Shown here: positions 1 to 9,158 of the stretch, in pieces
How the letters are laid out: each line of letters opens with the position of its first letter
Position numbering within the stretch: the stretch's first letter is position 1
IMG/VR virus record: IMGVR_UViG_3300030117_002489
Coordinates: 1-22,862 of that record
Reading direction: 5' to 3' (one strand)
Length of the DNA stretch: 22,862 nt
From: a virus
Translations under genes and position numbers: made by a program
The notes under the pieces: generated by a model
Seen by the model: only the letters and a program-made list of their open reading frames with translations
Told to the model about the DNA's origin: nothing
The model's database searches: none

Positions 1-1448
1 CTGATGTAGAGTATGATGCATTAGTAAATAATGGAGCAATGCTAAAAAGAATGATTGGCTATGATAAAGTAAGCGATATTGATGCTGAACTAATACAAGA
101 GTATGAAAGAAGAAAAGGGGTTAGAGCACAAAACATTTCTTATGATATTAATACTACATTATTAGAATTTACTAGAAGTCATATATTCCAACATGGTGAA
201 GGTGCATATAAAATGGAAGATGGGGTTATAAAAGAAAGAGAAGGTCGTTTTACTGGTATGGGTGATATAGCAATACTTACAGATTCTATTATAGGGTTTA
301 ATAAAAACTTAGATAATAAAAATGCTGTAAAGTATTTAACGGGCTGGTGGAAAGAAGGGTTTTTGACTATGGGTCAGACACAAGAAAGTGCAGTAGGTAA
401 AACAGGTGATAAGGTTATAGACTTTTTTGTAAGGCTTACATCGCTTAGATTACTTGGTTTAAATATGTCTGTTGGTATTGGTAACTTATTAGCAGGTAAG
501 TATCAAGAATTACGTAAACGTGGTGGTAAACAATTTATATTGGGTGAATCAAGGTATTGGAGAAATTTAAAAAAATCAAGAGAGATATTAAAAGATAAAA
601 GAATTGTAGAATATAGTTTTGATGAATTTATACACCTTGCAGAACAAAGTGGTCCAGCTAAAAAAATAGAAAAACTTGCCTATATATTTATGGACTATAC
701 AGAGGATTATATACAAGGAGCTGCATTTTTAGGAATGCTTACTGAACAAGAGTTTAACAACCCTGACACCATAACAGAAGAACGTGTAATGCAAATAAAT
801 AGCGCAATATCTACACTGCATGGAGAGGGTTATACAGCAATAGACGCAAGCTTATTGTCTATGTATTCATATGGTAGAGCGCTACTACAATTTAAAAAGT
901 GGTTTGTTACATTATTCAAAGACAGGTTTTCTGCGGAGGATATAGATAGATTTGGTGATGTAAACATAGGTAGTTATAGAGCTTCTGCAGATTTTGTTAC
1001 CGATTTATTTAGAAGATATTTTGCAGGTGATATAACCAAACAAGAGATAATGGAACTTTATAACAAATCAAGCGATGAACGTAAAGCAGCAATAAGAGCG
1101 CACGCTAGAGGTCTAGGTATTGGATTGTCTGTATTATCTCTTATAGCAATAATGGAAGATGATGATGACCCAGATGTAGGCACACTTAAAACATTAAAAA
1201 AGTTTTCTAACGATATATTTGTAACTACTGACATAAGAAGATTTGTAGATTACACTATTGTTCCTGCATCTATAGGTACAGCTAAAAACGCAAGTAAAGT
1301 TGTTATGCAAGCAGCATCTGGTGAAAAAACACAACGTAGAAGTGAGTACGCTGACAGAGGAGAATCTAAAGCGCTTAAAACTTTTATGACTGAAGTATCT
1401 CCTTTATCAGAGTTTAAAAAACAAATAGCAAGACTGGGAGAAGAATAA
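1..1448 (+). CDS. C-terminal part of a large phage virion-type protein (5' end outside window)
   Basis: The reading frame (first full codon at base 3) is open to the left edge, so the ATG at 39 is probably internal and this is the end of a longer gene. About 480 residues are visible. They are mostly charged and alpha-helical, with one hydrophobic stretch (about bases 1105-1160, GLGIGLSVLSLIAI) followed at once by an acidic run (EDDDD). The final part is basic and helical. Its size, its position just before small structural genes and the late hydrophobic segment resemble large internal virion or polyvalent proteins that are injected with DNA in some phages. That role is inferred from layout only, and I see no catalytic motif. 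The next gene starts 36 bases later. Confidence 0.6.
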   Translation, partial: DVEYDALVNNGAMLKRMIGYDKVSDIDAELIQEYERRKGVRAQNISYDINTTLLEFTRSHIFQHGEGAYKMEDGVIKEREGRFTGMGDIAILTDSIIGFNKNLDNKNAVKYLTGWWKEGFLTMGQTQESAVGKTGDKVIDFFVRLTSLRLLGLNMSVGIGNLLAGKYQELRKRGGKQFILGESRYWRNLKKSREILKDKRIVEYSFDEFIHLAEQSGPAKKIEKLAYIFMDYTEDYIQGAAFLGMLTEQEFNNPDTITEERVMQINSAISTLHGEGYTAIDASLLSMYSYGRALLQFKKWFVTLFKDRFSAEDIDRFGDVNIGSYRASADFVTDLFRRYFAGDITKQEIMELYNKSSDERKAAIRAHARGLGIGLSVLSLIAIMEDDDDPDVGTLKTLKKFSNDIFVTTDIRRFVDYTIVPASIGTAKNASKVVMQAASGEKTQRRSEYADRGESKALKTFMTEVSPLSEFKKQIARLGEE

Positions 1449-1463
1449 ATAATTTAATTTGAT

Positions 1464-1471
1464 TATATTTG
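1464..1471 (+). promoter_or_regulatory. Possible Bacteroidota -7 box (TATATTTG)
   Basis: TATATTTG fits the Bacteroidota -7 consensus TAnnTTTG and lies 13 bases before the ATG at 1485, in one of the few gaps in the late region. No TTTG is found at the usual 19-base spacing upstream. The same 8-mer also occurs inside coding DNA (for example near 1535), so chance is a real alternative. Confidence 0.22.
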
Positions 1472-1484
1472 TAAAAAATAATAC

Positions 1485-1856
1485 ATGAACGTAAACGATT
1501 TATTTAAAGCATCTTTTGGGCAGTTTGGATCTGTATATTTGACTGGTGATGGTGCGCAGTTAGATTTAGATGGAGCTACTGCTAATAGGTTTGTAATAGC
1601 TATTACCATGTTGGATGTAGTCAGATTTCAAGAGCTACACACTTTAGATAATTTAGTAGGTTCTATAACAACAGAAACAACACAATCACAAATAGATGAT
1701 GCTTTTGGTGCCGTAACAGATGATGCTAATAATGATCAGACAGAAATCACAACCTCTCATGAATTTCCAAAAGGTATAACCATATATGGTAAATGGGACA
1801 AGGTTGAATTACATGCTGGTTCATGCATTTGTTATCTAGCACCAGTAGGATATTAA
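1485..1856 (+). CDS. Small structural-type protein, first of a tandem paralogous pair
   Basis: This is a 123-residue acidic protein with no signal peptide or membrane segment. Its C-terminal third (GITIYGKWDK, then GSCICYLAP and a terminal aromatic residue) matches the next gene at 1869..2249 almost position by position (GTTIYGKWDK, GACIVYFAP). The two are therefore tandem duplicates that have diverged strongly in their N-terminal halves. The predicted beta content, small size and place among virion genes suggest a head-decoration or fibre-associated beta-sandwich protein. That is inference, and I do not recognise a named family. Translation probably starts at the ATG after an A-rich leader with no Shine-Dalgarno sequence. 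Confidence 0.75.
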   Translation: MNVNDLFKASFGQFGSVYLTGDGAQLDLDGATANRFVIAITMLDVVRFQELHTLDNLVGSITTETTQSQIDDAFGAVTDDANNDQTEITTSHEFPKGITIYGKWDKVELHAGSCICYLAPVGY

Positions 1857-1868
1857 AAAATAAAAATT

Positions 1869-2249
1869 ATGAGTTTTAAAAACATTGACCACACAAAATA
1901 CGTTTTAGGAGCTTACGGCTCTACATTATTATCAGGTACAGCTGGAATAAATTTAAGAGGAGATAATGCAAAAGTTTATGTTTGCGCTATTACAATATTA
2001 AATTCTGATGACGCTGATTCAACTTTTAGTGAAATGGAATCTTTAAACGGAGAAGTAGGCTGCATAAGCAGTGTAACTGCAGAAAATAATTTAGACCATC
2101 CAACTTTAGGAATAGGAGCTGGAGGTAACGGTGTAGACCTAGATAATAGTATACTTTTTGCAGCAGGCACAACTATATATGGTAAATGGGATAAAATTAC
2201 CATGGCAAGCGGAGCATGTATTGTTTACTTTGCGCCAAAAGGATTCTAG
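1869..2249 (+). CDS. Small structural-type protein, second of a tandem paralogous pair
   Basis: This 126-residue protein is paralogous to the product of 1485..1856. Both end in a TIYGKWDK segment followed by a short SG(A/S)CI-Y-AP-G-aromatic strand. The N-terminal halves share only a general pattern (a glycine-rich opening, then a V-AIT-L strand). Cysteines occur in the same C-terminal strand of both copies. Position and composition suggest a virion surface or decoration component, but the function is unknown. The gene ends in TAG, which shows TAG acting as a normal stop; the next ATG begins one base later at 2251. Confidence 0.75.
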   Translation: MSFKNIDHTKYVLGAYGSTLLSGTAGINLRGDNAKVYVCAITILNSDDADSTFSEMESLNGEVGCISSVTAENNLDHPTLGIGAGGNGVDLDNSILFAAGTTIYGKWDKITMASGACIVYFAPKGF

Positions 2250-2250
2250 T

Positions 2251-2409
2251 ATGGGTTTTGTACAAAAGTTAGCAAAAAGAAATCCAAGGGTTTATAAAAA
2301 AACAATTGAAGAAAAACCAGAAATTATTGTAAAAGATAATGTGGCATACAAAAAATTTGTAGGAAAAAAGAAAAATATATTTTATTACTTAAATCCAAAA
2401 AATTGGTAA
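2251..2409 (+). CDS. Small basic protein, 52 residues
   Basis: Starting at the ATG at 2251, directly after the preceding TAG stop, this frame gives a 52-residue, strongly basic protein rich in Lys, Tyr and Phe and ending in NPKNW. Upstream start codons in the same frame lie inside the previous gene and are less likely. It fills the space between 2249 and the next ATG at 2411 exactly, which supports it as a real gene in the late operon. There are no recognisable domain, cysteines or membrane segments. Its function is unknown. A small nucleic-acid-contacting or structural accessory protein would fit its charge, but that is a guess. Confidence 0.6.
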   Translation: MGFVQKLAKRNPRVYKKTIEEKPEIIVKDNVAYKKFVGKKKNIFYYLNPKNW

Positions 2410-2410
2410 T

Positions 2411-3172
2411 ATGGGTTTAGGTTTAGGCATAACAAATGAACCATTAGAATATCCTATAACATGGTTACCAAATGAGGATGAGTTGCAAACTTTTTTAAAA
2501 CTTTGGTTACAGGGAGGTGTTGGGGTTGCTACAAATGCTTGGACGGATTCAAGCGGTACGCAAAGTGGAGCAACACAAAGTTTGTCTGGTAACGCTCCTT
2601 CACTTTTAGGCGTAACACCTGAAGGTTTAAATTTTGACCAGTCAGGGCCGCCGCAATTTATGGACTTTGAACAAATAACAGTAGATGAAAATAGCGCTTT
2701 TACTTTAGCATTTGTAATTAAACTAAATTCTACAGTAAATCAAGTTATTTTATCAGATAGTGGAAACGAATTTATAGAAATTTTAAATAATAAAAATTTT
2801 AGAATAAAAACTAACAATCCAAGCAATGTGACTACTGTTTTAAAATCAAATGTATCAGTTTTTAATACTAGCTTATCAATCTTATTTTTATCTAGAGCGA
2901 GTAATGGAAAATTTGAATGGAGAATAAACGGAGAACAAATAAATTTTAATACAAGCACTTCGGTAAATCAAGTAAATACTGGGGGTTTTGATATACAAAA
3001 TTTATGTATAAGAAATGATAACGATAGAGCTGTAAGTGGAGAAGTAAGAGAAGTTATTTTTTATAATGAAATTGCTTTAGGTGATACGCAGTACCAATCA
3101 AAAATGGTAAACTTACACAACTATTTAGCGGATAAATTTGACATGACAATAGAATTAACAGATCTTGCTTAA
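2411..3172 (+). CDS. LamG/concanavalin-like structural protein (candidate receptor-binding or fibre protein)
   Basis: A 253-residue protein. After about 45 N-terminal residues comes the pattern of a LamG-like jelly roll: W-DSSG near residue 46, LNFDQSG near 73, FTLAFVIKL near 97, a FEWRINGEQI strand near 163, and a late EVREVIFYN-EIAL segment followed by a helix (MVNLHNYLADKF). This order is typical of Laminin_G_3-like domains found in phage tail and decoration proteins that bind glycans. The assignment rests on motif order, not on an alignment score. It lies between small virion proteins and the envelope-directed group, so a role in host-surface contact is plausible. No signal peptide is present. 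Confidence 0.6.
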   Translation: MGLGLGITNEPLEYPITWLPNEDELQTFLKLWLQGGVGVATNAWTDSSGTQSGATQSLSGNAPSLLGVTPEGLNFDQSGPPQFMDFEQITVDENSAFTLAFVIKLNSTVNQVILSDSGNEFIEILNNKNFRIKTNNPSNVTTVLKSNVSVFNTSLSILFLSRASNGKFEWRINGEQINFNTSTSVNQVNTGGFDIQNLCIRNDNDRAVSGEVREVIFYNEIALGDTQYQSKMVNLHNYLADKFDMTIELTDLA

Positions 3173-3181
3173 GAATAAAAA

Positions 3182-4312
3182 ATGATAAAAAAAATTACAT
3201 TAATAATATTTATATTCTGTTTAGTGGCTTGCGGGACTTCAAAAAAATGTTGTGCGCAAACTTTTGAAGTTAAAGGCTATGAATACAATATAAATGATAT
3301 TATAAAAAATCAATTAAAATTTTCTACTTTTTATGTAGCGGTAAATGGAGGTACTTCAGTATCTGATTTAAAAACTTATTCCGTAACATCTGGTATGTTA
3401 CAAGAAAATATAATTAGTACCCCATACGATTATTCTACTACTATTGGATTAAGGAAAATTGCTAGGTTTGGTTATGAAAACAAAGCAAACACATTTTATG
3501 ATGGTACTGAATCTAATTACACAGATGCAGCAACAGTAGGTAAAGTTCAAGGTTTTGAATATTTATTTGAGGTAGATTATGCAAGACAACAGGGCGTAGA
3601 ATTTATAGATCAACACCACTTTATTAGATATAGTTCTGATGATGATTGTGATGGACCCTTATGCGTAGAACATTTTGCAGCTAAAGTAGAATATTTAAAA
3701 GATGGATTTGCAGATGTAGAGTATTTTGAATTATCAGAAAGATACAGACATAAATACAGTAAAGATCTAGCGTTTAGTATTGGTTTTGCACATAGATTGG
3801 CAGAGCCATACGGGTACAATCCACTACAAGAATGGATCTTGGATAATGGAAATCTTCATTACACTTACTTAGCTATTCAAGAAGGGTATACCATTGACGT
3901 AGCAAATAGTGAGTATAAAGATCCTAGTGGTGCCCTAGTAGCAACAAATCCTGAAGTATGGAAAGAAGTTGTAATACCGCAAATGTTATCAAACTACACA
4001 GAGAAAAAAAGAAATGAATTAGAAAGAATCATTCAACATTCTATTGTAATAGGTTTTGATTATTATAAGTATAGCAAAAGTACATGGTTACATGCATGGG
4101 GCAATATATTACCTTGGCATTACAACGATGGTAATAATTTTTCATATCACAATTATATAGAAGATGACCAGTGGTATGACTATACAGCAGGATTGATATA
4201 CGGAATAAAAGTCAATAAAAATTTAGGATATTTTGTTGAAGGAAAATACAATAAGTACTGGAATAGAGAATGGTACGACTTTAAATTAGGTGTTAATTAT
4301 ATAATATTTTAA
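3182..4312 (+). CDS. Exported lipoprotein or outer-membrane-type protein encoded by the phage
   Basis: A 376-residue protein with a clear export signal: a basic start (MIKK), a hydrophobic core, then the lipobox LVAC at residues 14-17. A type I cleavage after CCAQ near residue 26 is an alternative. No acidic lipoprotein export signal follows the cysteine. The mature part is rich in Tyr, Trp, Asn and Asp, with many alternating strands (such as LAFSIGFAHRLA and WLHAWGNILPW) and it ends in a strand with terminal Phe (KLGVNYIIF), as outer-membrane beta-barrels do. I do not recognise a family. It opens a run of envelope-directed genes. Possible roles are altering the infected host surface (superinfection exclusion), acting in lysis, or being a virion part. 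The sequence does not decide among them. Confidence 0.65.
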   Translation: MIKKITLIIFIFCLVACGTSKKCCAQTFEVKGYEYNINDIIKNQLKFSTFYVAVNGGTSVSDLKTYSVTSGMLQENIISTPYDYSTTIGLRKIARFGYENKANTFYDGTESNYTDAATVGKVQGFEYLFEVDYARQQGVEFIDQHHFIRYSSDDDCDGPLCVEHFAAKVEYLKDGFADVEYFELSERYRHKYSKDLAFSIGFAHRLAEPYGYNPLQEWILDNGNLHYTYLAIQEGYTIDVANSEYKDPSGALVATNPEVWKEVVIPQMLSNYTEKKRNELERIIQHSIVIGFDYYKYSKSTWLHAWGNILPWHYNDGNNFSYHNYIEDDQWYDYTAGLIYGIKVNKNLGYFVEGKYNKYWNREWYDFKLGVNYIIF

Positions 4313-4314
4313 AA

Positions 4315-4422
4315 ATGAAAGAAATTATTTGTAAATTTGTAAAGAAGATAACTTTTGGAAAAATTTGTTTAGACTATTGTTATAAATCTAAATGCAAAAA
4401 AAATGGCAAAAGAGTTAAGTGA
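4315..4422 (+). CDS. Candidate 35-residue cysteine-rich basic peptide
   Basis: An ATG two bases after the preceding stop opens a 35-residue frame ending in TGA at 4420-4422, overlapping the next gene (start 4403) by 20 bases. The peptide is very basic (many Lys) and has four cysteines, at residues 6, 18, 22 and 27, in a C-x11-C-x3-C-x4-C spacing. It fills an otherwise unexplained 90-base gap in a region where genes abut or overlap, which is the main support. There is no signal peptide. The function is unknown; a small metal-binding or disulphide-rich peptide is possible. Conservation in related phages would settle whether it is translated. Confidence 0.45.
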   Translation: MKEIICKFVKKITFGKICLDYCYKSKCKKNGKRVK

Positions 4423-4684
4423 AGAAACGTCTTTTCAAGTTAGTTTAAAAACGCTTGGAGGTATAGCTGCTTTAATAGCAACGCTAGTCGGTATGTGGTT
4501 TACGCTGCAAGCTGATATAGCGGAAGCAAAAGAATTACCATCTCCACCAGATCCAGAAGTAACAAGGATGGAGTTTGACATGAAAGATCAAATGATACGC
4601 CAAACTATTATGGATACTAAAAAAGATGTAGAGGAAATGAAGGCTACATTAGAAAAAATTGAAGACAAGTTATATAATAGATAA
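4403..4684 (+). CDS. Small membrane protein with C-terminal coiled coil (lysis- or envelope-associated candidate)
   Basis: A 93-residue protein with one membrane segment at about residues 16-34 (TLGGIAALIATLVGMWFTL), a short Pro-rich linker (PSPPDPEV) and a C-terminal helix with heptad-like spacing (MEEMK-ATLEKIEDKL). This layout (N-terminal anchor, linker, coiled coil) is shared by many phage lysis accessories such as inner-membrane spanins and XhlA-like proteins, but no specific family motif is seen. The next gene overlaps it by one base (TAATG), pointing to translational coupling with the exported thioredoxin-like protein. The lysis role is inference. Confidence 0.65.
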   Translation: MAKELSEETSFQVSLKTLGGIAALIATLVGMWFTLQADIAEAKELPSPPDPEVTRMEFDMKDQMIRQTIMDTKKDVEEMKATLEKIEDKLYNR

Positions 4685-5043
4685 TGGAAAAGTCTGAAGG
4701 TTTTGGCCAGTACATAATATATTTTTTGATAATAGTATTTATGTTTTTGGTTGGAACTGCTTTTGGGCAAATAAAAGTAATTCAGTTTAACGCAGAATGG
4801 AACAAAACAAACGATGTAAGCTGGGTAAACAGTTTAAAAGATTGCAGAACTATTTCTTATACTGACGTATCAAAAGACAAAAAAGCACAAAAAAAATATA
4901 AAATAGCAGCTGTTCCTACTATTATAATATTTAAAGACGGTGAAGAAGTTGCTAGGTTTCAAGCTGACCTTAGTTTTACAATGGTAGCTACAAAAGAAGA
5001 AGTACAAGAAGAAATAGATAACATATTAATGAGTGATTTTTGA
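4684..5043 (+). CDS. Exported thioredoxin-fold protein lacking both active-site cysteines
   Basis: A 119-residue protein. Residues 8-29 form a signal or anchor segment ending in AFG. The rest follows thioredoxin: strand IKVIQFNAEW (30-39), the position of the WCxxC motif occupied by W39-N40-K41-T42-N43, a DVSKDKKAQKKYKI segment (61-74), the cis-proline motif AVPTIIIF (76-83), and KDGEEVARFQA (84-94). Both cysteines of the redox motif are replaced by Asn, so thiol-disulphide exchange at that site is excluded. The only cysteine is Cys54. The fold assignment is fairly secure; the function is unknown. A binding or chaperone role outside the cytoplasm is more likely than catalysis. It is coupled to the preceding membrane protein and precedes the secreted repeat protein by one base. 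Confidence 0.7.
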   Translation: MEKSEGFGQYIIYFLIIVFMFLVGTAFGQIKVIQFNAEWNKTNDVSWVNSLKDCRTISYTDVSKDKKAQKKYKIAAVPTIIIFKDGEEVARFQADLSFTMVATKEEVQEEIDNILMSDF

Positions 5044-5044
5044 C

Positions 5045-6928
5045 ATGAAAAAATTATTATTTTTATTACTACTACCAATTACCATGTTAGCACAAGGTCC
5101 ACCTAACTGCGTTCCTACAACTATTGTTATAAATTTAGATCAATATCAAGGTGAAACTGCTTGGGCTATATATGACACGGCTGGAAACATGTTGACATAT
5201 GGTCAGGGCTACAGCTCACAACCAGACTATGCTTCTGTGGTAGAACAAAGATGTTTACCTGCAGGTGATCTAACTTTTACAATATACGATAGTTATGGAG
5301 ATGGTGTAAACGGAGCTTTATGGGGTGGTTTAGATGGTTCGTATTATCTTATTCAATGTAATGACACTTTAATATATGGTACTAATGCTGCTTTTGGATA
5401 TGACACTACTCATGTTTTTGTGTCTGATGCTTGCCCACCCATACCTGGGTGTATGGATCCGATGTATGTAGAGTTTAATCCTCTAGCTGATACAGATGAC
5501 GGTTCATGCACGACACTAAAAGTATTTGGTTGTATTGATTCAACTATGTTTAATTATGATCCAAATGCAAATACCATGGCTTTGATCCCTAACTGTGATT
5601 ACGTCTTAACGCTATATGATTTAATAGGAGACGGCTGGGTAGGATCTTATTTAGAAGTAAAACAAGATACAAATGAGTATCAGTTTTGGATAGACACTAC
5701 TGCGTACACACAAGACTTTACTATAAATTTAAAGTCACCAATGCCTGTAGAATTTAAGTTCTACGTAACAGCACAAGCCCAATTAACAACACCTCATTGT
5801 GGATTTAAACTTACTAATCCATTAGGCAATACTATAATAGAAGTTTTACCACCATTTATTCAACCTATGTATAAATATAAAGTATCAACTTACTGTGGTA
5901 ATTTATGCATAGAAAAAACATTTGGCTGTATGGATAGTTTAGCTGTAAACTATTTAGACTCAGTAAATACAGATGATGGAAGCTGCTATTATTTGCCTGG
6001 ATGTACAAACTCTTCTTATTTAGAATATTATACACAAGGGTTTGTAGCGGATTACAATAATGGGTCGTGCCAAACTGAAGCTATATGGGGTTGTACTGAT
6101 AGCACAGCTTTTAATTACGACAGTATAGCTAATTTAGATAACGGAGGATGTGTGCCTGTTATATTTGGTTGTATGCAGCCTTTAGCTTTTAATTACAATG
6201 TAAATGCTAATACAGACGATGGTAGTTGTGTACCATACATATATGGTTGTACTGATCCTACTATGTATAACTTTGATGTCAATGCCAATACAGATGATGG
6301 ATCTTGCATTCCGTTTGTGTTTGGTTGTACAGACTCAACTATGTTTAATTATAATCCTTTAGCAAATGCAGATAACAACTCTTGTATACCTTATATTTAC
6401 GGTTGCACTGATCCTAGTATGCTTAATTATAATCCACAAGCCAACACGGAAAATTTTTCTTGCATACCTTTTGTGTATGGGTGCACTGATAATACTGCTC
6501 TTAACTATGATTCGTTGGCTAATACTGACAATGGTTCGTGTATATCTATCGTTGAAGGATGTATGGATCTCAATGCGTATAATTATGATGCGGAAGCAAA
6601 TGTAAACGATAGTTTAGCTTGCCTATATGATGCAGGTTGTGTTACTGGACCAGGTATACCTTATTGGTTGAATGACCCTTGCTATGCATGGGTTATATCT
6701 GTAGATGATTATTGTTGCGAAAACGAATGGGATAATATATGTCAATTAACTTATAATTATTGTGATGGATCTTATTATGGTCCAATACAAAAACGTACAA
6801 ATAAAAAATTAATAGCAATAACAGATTTATTAGGTAGACCTGTAAATGACGTTAAAAATAAATTTGTTATTTTTATATACGATGACGGAACAACAGAAAA
6901 AAAATTAATTAAAAAATGGCACTATTAA
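5045..6928 (+). CDS. Secreted Cys-rich repeat protein with type IX secretion C-terminal signal
   Basis: A 627-residue protein. I chose the ATG at 5045 because a signal peptide (MKKLLFLLLLPITMLAQG) begins there; an upstream GTG at 5033 is unlikely. Two segments with the DxxGDGWxG-like motif (near residues 85 and 195) resemble beta-sandwich modules of Bacteroidota secreted proteins. Eleven GC-D-(x)-NY-A-DDGSC-type repeats follow (nucleotides 5447..6622), then a Cys-rich module with YCCENEWDNIC. The C-terminus (LIAITDLLGRPVND through IYDDGTTEKKLI) has the form of the Bacteroidota type IX sorting domain. Such proteins are normally host-encoded and exported by the Sec and then the type IX pathway to the cell surface or medium. 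Here it sits one base after a phage gene and overlaps the next by 13 bases, so it is integral to the phage operon. Acquisition from a host is likely; its role is unknown. Confidence 0.85.
   Translation: MKKLLFLLLLPITMLAQGPPNCVPTTIVINLDQYQGETAWAIYDTAGNMLTYGQGYSSQPDYASVVEQRCLPAGDLTFTIYDSYGDGVNGALWGGLDGSYYLIQCNDTLIYGTNAAFGYDTTHVFVSDACPPIPGCMDPMYVEFNPLADTDDGSCTTLKVFGCIDSTMFNYDPNANTMALIPNCDYVLTLYDLIGDGWVGSYLEVKQDTNEYQFWIDTTAYTQDFTINLKSPMPVEFKFYVTAQAQLTTPHCGFKLTNPLGNTIIEVLPPFIQPMYKYKVSTYCGNLCIEKTFGCMDSLAVNYLDSVNTDDGSCYYLPGCTNSSYLEYYTQGFVADYNNGSCQTEAIWGCTDSTAFNYDSIANLDNGGCVPVIFGCMQPLAFNYNVNANTDDGSCVPYIYGCTDPTMYNFDVNANTDDGSCIPFVFGCTDSTMFNYNPLANADNNSCIPYIYGCTDPSMLNYNPQANTENFSCIPFVYGCTDNTALNYDSLANTDNGSCISIVEGCMDLNAYNYDAEANVNDSLACLYDAGCVTGPGIPYWLNDPCYAWVISVDDYCCENEWDNICQLTYNYCDGSYYGPIQKRTNKKLIAITDLLGRPVNDVKNKFVIFIYDDGTTEKKLIKKWHY
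5447..6622 (+). repeat. Eleven tandem Cys-delimited protein repeats within the secreted protein
   Basis: Each unit begins GC(T/M/I)(D/N), has an aromatic pair in the middle (usually NY), and ends in (D/N)(D/N)GSC or a variant. Unit length is about 21-24 residues with a 3-9 residue linker (often P-x-x-YG or PFV-x-G). Unit 2 is interrupted by one of the DxxGDGW modules. Units 6-10 are closest to one another, suggesting recent expansion. Similar repeats are common in Bacteroidota surface proteins. Confidence 0.8.
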
Positions 6929-7176: not shown

Positions 7177-7563
7177 ATGTTAGATAAAATATTTAGTGGC
7201 GGGGCCACAGAATTAGTAAAAAGCGTAGGAGGTGTAATAGATAATTTACACACATCAAAAGAAGAAAAATTAGACGCAGAAAGAAAAATTAAAGAAATGA
7301 TAATGGGTTATGAAGCTGAAATGCAAAAGCAAGTAACTGAAAGATGGAAGGTTGATATGGCATCAGATTCATGGCTATCAAAAAACATAAGACCATTAGT
7401 TCTTATATTTTTATGTGTGTCAACTGTTTTGTTAATATTCATAGATGCAGGAGTGATTTCATTTGAGGTTAAAGCGTCTTGGGTAGATTTATTACAGCTA
7501 GTGTTAATTACAGTTATAGGTGCATACTTTGGCGGTAGATCATTAGAAAAAGTTAAAAAATGA
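7177..7563 (+). CDS. Holin, 3TM (GTA-type) family
   Basis: A 128-residue protein: an amphipathic N-terminal region (1-60), then SDSWLSKNIRPLVLIF at the start of the first clear membrane segment (about 72-92), a short loop, a second membrane segment (about 102-120) and the AYFGGRSLEK ending. The WLSKNIRPLVL motif and the G-A-Y-F-G-(G/S)-R-S-(x)-E-K tail are typical of the 3TM holins of gene transfer agents and Bacteroidota phages. Holins accumulate in the inner membrane and trigger lysis at a set time. The gene overlaps the next by ATGA. A peptidoglycan-active candidate follows at 8682. Confidence 0.8.
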   Translation: MLDKIFSGGATELVKSVGGVIDNLHTSKEEKLDAERKIKEMIMGYEAEMQKQVTERWKVDMASDSWLSKNIRPLVLIFLCVSTVLLIFIDAGVISFEVKASWVDLLQLVLITVIGAYFGGRSLEKVKK

Positions 7564-8681: not shown

Positions 8682-9158
8682 ATGAAACTTAAAGTATTAA
8701 GATTTAGTAGCCAGGAGGACAGTACTTCTGGCTTACTTTTTTTAGAAACAGACTTAGGTTTAAAGTTTCTTTGTTACACACTAGAAGATGAAGCAAGAGC
8801 TTTAAAAGTAAGAGGGGAAACTAGAGTACCTGCTGGTACATATCAAATTAAATTAAGAACTGAAGGGGGATTTCATGGTAGATATACTAAAAGATTTGCG
8901 GGCATGCATAAAGGCATGTTACACGTTATTGATGTACCGAATTTTAAATGGATACTTATACATACTGGTAACACTGATGAGCATACTGCTGGGTGCCTTT
9001 TGGTTGGCGACTCGCAAGAAAACAACGTTATCATTAAAGATGGGTTCATTGGTAAATCCACTAATGCGTACAAGAGAATATATCCGCCTATTGCTAAAGC
9101 GTTAGAAAAAGGAGAGGAGGTAACTATACAGTATATTGATTTAGATTCTTTAGTATAA
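8682..9158 (+). CDS. DUF5675-type protein, candidate peptidoglycan-acting lysis enzyme
   Basis: A 158-residue protein with the layout of DUF5675 proteins: TSGLLFLETDLGLKFLCYTLED (15-36), RVPAGTYQIKLR (48-59), HKGMLHVIDVPNFKWILIHTGNT (76-98) and HTAGCLLVGD (101-110). His94, His101 and Cys105 are spaced like the His and [S/T]xGC elements of L,D-transpeptidase (YkuD) folds, with Thr-Ala-Gly-Cys at the putative nucleophile. It lies four genes after the holin, and no other lysozyme, amidase or peptidase is visible in the window, so a peptidoglycan-acting (endolysin-like) role is a reasonable inference. Family membership is likely; the activity is not established here. Confidence 0.65.
   Translation: MKLKVLRFSSQEDSTSGLLFLETDLGLKFLCYTLEDEARALKVRGETRVPAGTYQIKLRTEGGFHGRYTKRFAGMHKGMLHVIDVPNFKWILIHTGNTDEHTAGCLLVGDSQENNVIIKDGFIGKSTNAYKRIYPPIAKALEKGEEVTIQYIDLDSLV

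Follow-up and report, generated by a model that had tools for sequence, protein, structure and literature searches.

The reading frame at positions 4684..5043 of the window (the whole stretch of DNA analysed here, an IMG/VR virus record of 22,862 bases) encodes a protein that, according to structure prediction, is a minimal thioredoxin fold behind a signal peptide, with Asn in place of both catalytic Cys. Its conservation across a large viral family gives good support to a function in binding without redox chemistry. We tentatively favour, at somewhat short of even confidence, an exported, redox-dead thioredoxin-fold binding protein that would serve a phage envelope (surface-export) module as adaptor or chaperone.

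Predicted fold and export of the NxxN protein

The protein, named here after its active-site motif, has the following features in the window.

4684..5043, + strand: NxxN thioredoxin-fold protein, 119 aa, ATG start, stop counted in the coordinates
4684-4767, + strand: predicted signal peptide, followed by the mature domain from Q29 (4768-5040)
4798..4812, + strand: WNKTN, residues 39-43, in the position of thioredoxin WCGPC; N40 is 4801-4803 and N43 is 4810-4812
4912..4920, + strand: V77-P78-T79, cis-proline loop, with P78 and T79 without variation
4954..4977, + strand: RFQADLSF, residues 91-98, beta4-alpha3 loop lining the thioredoxin substrate groove, with R91 invariant

The start of the frame shares one base with the stop of the upstream frame, and the next ATG (5045) lies one base after its own stop. 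Residues 1-28 form a signal sequence or TM helix, and the domain spans the 91 residues from Q29 to F119. The original prediction described an exported thioredoxin fold in which WCxxC had become WNKTN; the frame is real, both catalytic Cys are indeed Asn, and the cis-proline (AVPTI, residues 76-80) and the KDG turn (residues 84-86) were located as claimed. The proline, P78, is present in 190/190 homologues; its position was identified by sequence and its cis geometry is putative. The protein is nevertheless not devoid of Cys: C54, located away from the active site, is retained by 157/190 homologues and replaced by V, A or I in the others; it looks like a core position.

At the sequence level the match to Pfam Thioredoxin (PF00085) is just above the curated cut-off (23.8 bits vs 23.5, E 4.5e-5) and covers residues 50-95, the C-terminal half only; a relative from a deeper branch (L344) scores 26.4 bits. 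The thioredoxin equivalog TIGR01068 was not reached (26.6 bits vs a curated cut-off of 96.8), and a profile of 42 homologues matched PDB thioredoxins at 2.9e-7. AlphaFold2 with 87 homologues gave a mature-domain model with pLDDT 88.5 and pTM 0.77 and the secondary structure order beta-alpha-beta-alpha-beta-beta-alpha; modelling at full length gave a poor result (pLDDT 64). In Foldseek the best 50 PDB matches of the mature model were all thioredoxins or designs on the thioredoxin fold, with TMq up to 0.74, and an earlier fold search of lower quality gave an agreeing result. Structure prediction thus confirms the claimed fold, and the profile match, the model and the Foldseek matches together rule out a chance lookalike.

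Compared with thioredoxin (PF00085, TIGR01068; S. aureus Trx 2o7k, plant Trx y1 7bzk), the NxxN protein has the same fold, FxAxW motif, cis-proline, KDG turn and groove loops, but differs in the two Asn, a shorter first helix, the signal peptide, an insertion of ~5-6 residues before the last helix and a score far below the TIGR01068 cut-off. The closest predicted viral folds, compared by fold, are four BFVD proteins (A0A516M0U0, A0A516L471, A0A516MHR8 and A0A516M4Z3; TMq 0.72-0.87, identity 26-35%).

Export of the protein is supported by residue 29, which is Gln in 187/190 homologues and falls at the predicted signal-peptidase site, many relatives having textbook signal peptides that end in FSQ or FGQ. 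Cleavage by signal peptidase I so as to expose Gln is the Q-rule of Bacteroidetes (PMC5837995, PMC10653852), and the near-invariant Q29 taken with this rule supports both export and a Bacteroidota host.

Conservation and origin of the asparagine pair

Homologues were retrieved by four routes, using the NxxN protein itself, the conserved domain peptides RFQADLSF and PTIIIFK, a DNA pattern for FQADLSFxxxAT, and the upstream gene alone. Among 190 distinct homologues, diverging to below 45% identity, N40 is present in 190 and N43 in 189, indicating that the pair is not a product of chance; free variation at the two sites is thereby rejected, and the CxxC active site of disulfide oxidoreductases is absent, with NxxN in all but one sequence. 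Both Asn codons are in use at each site (AAT/AAC 117/73 at N40 and 124/65 at N43), implying that the residue and not the DNA is conserved. When the set was thinned to 80% identity (70 sequences), the sole unvarying positions were N40, P78, T79, E88, R91 and F119. An N-glycosylation sequon, N-K-T, was considered and rejected, as it is not conserved and position 42 is mostly Ala.

Retrieval through the upstream gene is blind to the thioredoxin-like sequence and therefore unbiased for the Asn site. It gave a matching downstream gene in 78/80 loci, the other two stopping at a contig edge; of these 78, 75 read NN, two that encode an identical protein read N..K, and one was a misread of the pattern. 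The N..K protein (L345/L346:5261-5668, N43 to K, identical in both loci) is the sole departure from the Asn pair that we observed. Older branches reached by the same route (L344, L350, L352, L366 and L373) read FWAEWNxxN or near it, which, judged by sequence, is a direct C-to-N replacement of thioredoxin FWAEWCGPC. A tree that included 13 CxxC thioredoxins placed the 45 NxxN rows together on one side of a branch supported at 100/100; the inner forks are uncertain because few columns were available.

We mapped the groove loops from E. coli Trx W31-C35, I75-P76 and V91-A93. The corresponding positions show higher conservation than randomly drawn sets of sites, with p 0.00045 for 8 positions and 0.013 for a wider set of 11, the latter being the fairer figure because the positions were chosen by us. 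The near-invariant Asn pair, the single NxxN clade and the conserved groove loops together lend good support to the earlier suggestion of selection for a role that does not involve thiols.

The proposed envelope module and possible roles of the protein

Neighbouring genes were counted in 118 distinct loci, each flanked by at least 2.5 kb in both directions. The genes concerned lie in the window as follows.

3182..4312, + strand: outer-membrane beta-barrel-like protein, 376 aa, with signal sequence and C-terminal ..NYIIF; barrel assigned from sequence only
4403..4684, + strand: obligate partner gene upstream, 93 aa, encoding a single TM helix and a predicted coiled-coil tail; its stop codon shares a base with the start of the NxxN gene
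5045..6928, + strand: exported protein with Cys-rich repeats, its C-terminal segment similar to a type IX secretion sorting signal
7177..7563, + strand: GTA-type 3TM holin, context gene
8682..9158, + strand: DUF5675 protein, context gene

The upstream gene is present in 118/118 loci, always upstream and at a median distance of -1 base. A second TM-plus-coil gene like it was seen at L344:2981-3307 (second hit of record G054), adjoining a peptidase M15-like gene. The barrel-like gene is present in 117/118 loci. We infer a barrel from the signal sequence, strand pattern and aromatic C-terminal end in an alignment of 19 members, which gave no Pfam or PDB family match, including to the PorP/SprF Pfam family. 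Starting from relatives of the barrel-like gene, the NxxN/upstream pair was found again in 67/78 loci. The 11 loci apparently lacking the pair are mostly contig ends: in L440 the pair lies at the opposite contig end from the barrel-like gene, and only L447, an 18.7 kb fragment, shows none. Giant proteins (~1.3-3.8 kaa) were also seen near the module (L426:245-7930 and an ORF upstream in L025), several of them with a terminal Cys/His tail, for example RCxMxTSNKSGxCYYHD.

That the NxxN gene is so strictly paired with two phage envelope genes bears on a host-directed role, in which the NxxN protein would bind a host periplasmic protein (a Dsb/Trx partner, a T9SS part or a receptor), blocking superinfection or altering envelope redox. 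Small exported phage proteins can play roles of this kind, and a groove retained after its chemistry was lost would suit such a role; the pairing, however, points to a phage-encoded partner, and there was no match to defence families, so that we regard a host target as very unlikely. Competition with host periplasmic thiol enzymes, one of the options in the original prediction, has nothing in its favour.

The original prediction had also suggested that the protein might shield or escort the Cys-rich repeats encoded by the next gene; in this role it would hold the repeats in a reduced or unfolded state up to their export. This link is plausible because 116/118 loci have a Cys-rich repeat gene no more than 5 kb away (downstream in 100), and 49/50 whole records match the protein; TraF/TraH, discussed below, provides a precedent. 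It is not specific, however, given the 118/118 and 117/118 of the other two genes and the variable position of the Cys-rich gene, which makes its linkage looser than that of the upstream gene. The deep-branching L350 and L373 retain NxxN and have no gene for Cys-rich repeats within ~5 kb; the gene that follows in L352 and L373 encodes a small exported protein with few Cys. In L350 the module is kept while the whole 35 kb record has no match to the Cys-rich protein, indicating that a Cys-rich cargo is not obligatory. Escort of the repeats is conceivable but not essential, and a role specific to them we consider unlikely.

The window copy of the Cys-rich gene has no Pfam or NCBIfam match, the T9SS sorting-domain model included; the related gene L335:5661-8792 matches TIGR04183 at 5.5e-10. 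This gene and many related loci encode exported repeat proteins of large size, and in some of these a type A sorting domain of type IX secretion is present. Earlier reports of T9SS sorting domains in phage proteins concern Cryophage (PMC7468147) and crAss-like clusters (PMC6949934).

Lysis is the main rival explanation. The upstream protein, judged by its sequence, would be compatible with an inner-membrane spanin, which has an N-terminal TM helix and a periplasmic coil, and could act like such a spanin or an antiholin, with the NxxN domain as a periplasmic regulator or as a bridge to the outer-membrane barrel. An endolysin-like M15 peptidase and a 3TM holin lie closely downstream in L350, L352, L355, L373 and L344, a lysis-type gene occurs within 5 kb in 64/118 loci, and one of 33 upstream proteins matched a PHROG Rz-like spanin (5.8e-4). 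That match is weak, however, and coiled coils match easily; in almost half of the loci the surrounding 5 kb lack a recognised lysis gene; and a lipobox-like motif, sought with a simple pattern, was found in only 48/128 barrel-like neighbours and not in the NxxN protein. On balance a lysis function seems improbable to us.

F-plasmid TraF is not known to carry CxxC. In F conjugation it is a periplasmic protein with a thioredoxin-like fold and binds the cysteine-rich TraH (PMC7555446). In TraF/TrbB with TraH, too, an exported thioredoxin-fold protein belongs to an envelope assembly, of which a Cys-rich partner and an inner-membrane protein of bitopic type are also parts, but the proteins are larger and belong to another system, so that the likeness is an analogy only (PMC7555446). 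The tightest links being to the upstream and barrel-like genes, the Cys-rich gene not being required and the TraF analogy lead us to favour the adaptor or chaperone.

In the mechanism that we infer, from periplasmic location, host phylum and groove binding to partner identity, escort role and timing, cleavage before Gln29 would release a 91-residue domain into the periplasm of the host, a member of the Bacteroidota. The groove of this domain, formed by WNxxN, the cis-proline loop and the RFQAD loop, would hold a partner segment without a disulfide, and the adjacent inner-membrane coiled-coil protein would probably dock the domain at the inner membrane. These two proteins and the outer-membrane barrel-like protein would constitute the phage envelope module, whose most likely job would be the escort or assembly of phage envelope proteins late in infection, the proposed clients being the barrel and the exported repeat protein, the latter similar in appearance to cargo of type IX secretion. 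A bolder version, possible but doubtful, is that the module delivers phage surface proteins via host type IX secretion, with the thioredoxin groove serving as an Asn-based non-covalent peptide clamp. Shuttles of the PorP/SprF and PorV types are outer-membrane barrels, the former often encoded next to exported cargo (PMC12618676); the phage protein is likewise a predicted barrel near a putative cargo, but has no Pfam match to those families.

Distribution and significance

The NxxN family is large in IMG/VR, where, going by sequence matches, hundreds of uncultured viruses encode the protein; their hosts are probably Bacteroidota. INPHARED phages contained no relatives of the NxxN protein, the upstream gene or the barrel-like gene, L344 giving a single weak match there, and three Bacteroidota genomes gave no match. 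A cellular gene in a misclassified contig was considered and rejected: genome contigs yielded only ordinary thioredoxins and no close relative, and genes for a holin, a DnaB-like helicase and an exonuclease lie nearby. Beside the module in L335, ORFs at 362-5001 resemble, by eye only, a T4-type portal and prohead protease; with such neighbours the module may occur in different phage types. A GroEL-like ORF, also recognised by eye, lies at L440:10718-12331 (-), on a phage contig of the same group.

Our searches of the open-access literature turned up no account of a phage thioredoxin with NxxN. Redox-dead thioredoxin domains are already known; here the change is a clean C-to-N replacement at both positions, fixed across a large family of uncultured phages and tied to the same envelope genes. 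The family therefore offers a case, open to testing, in which a thioredoxin groove would have been retained solely for binding, and the module points to a hitherto undescribed route by which phages may remodel the envelope of T9SS-bearing hosts.
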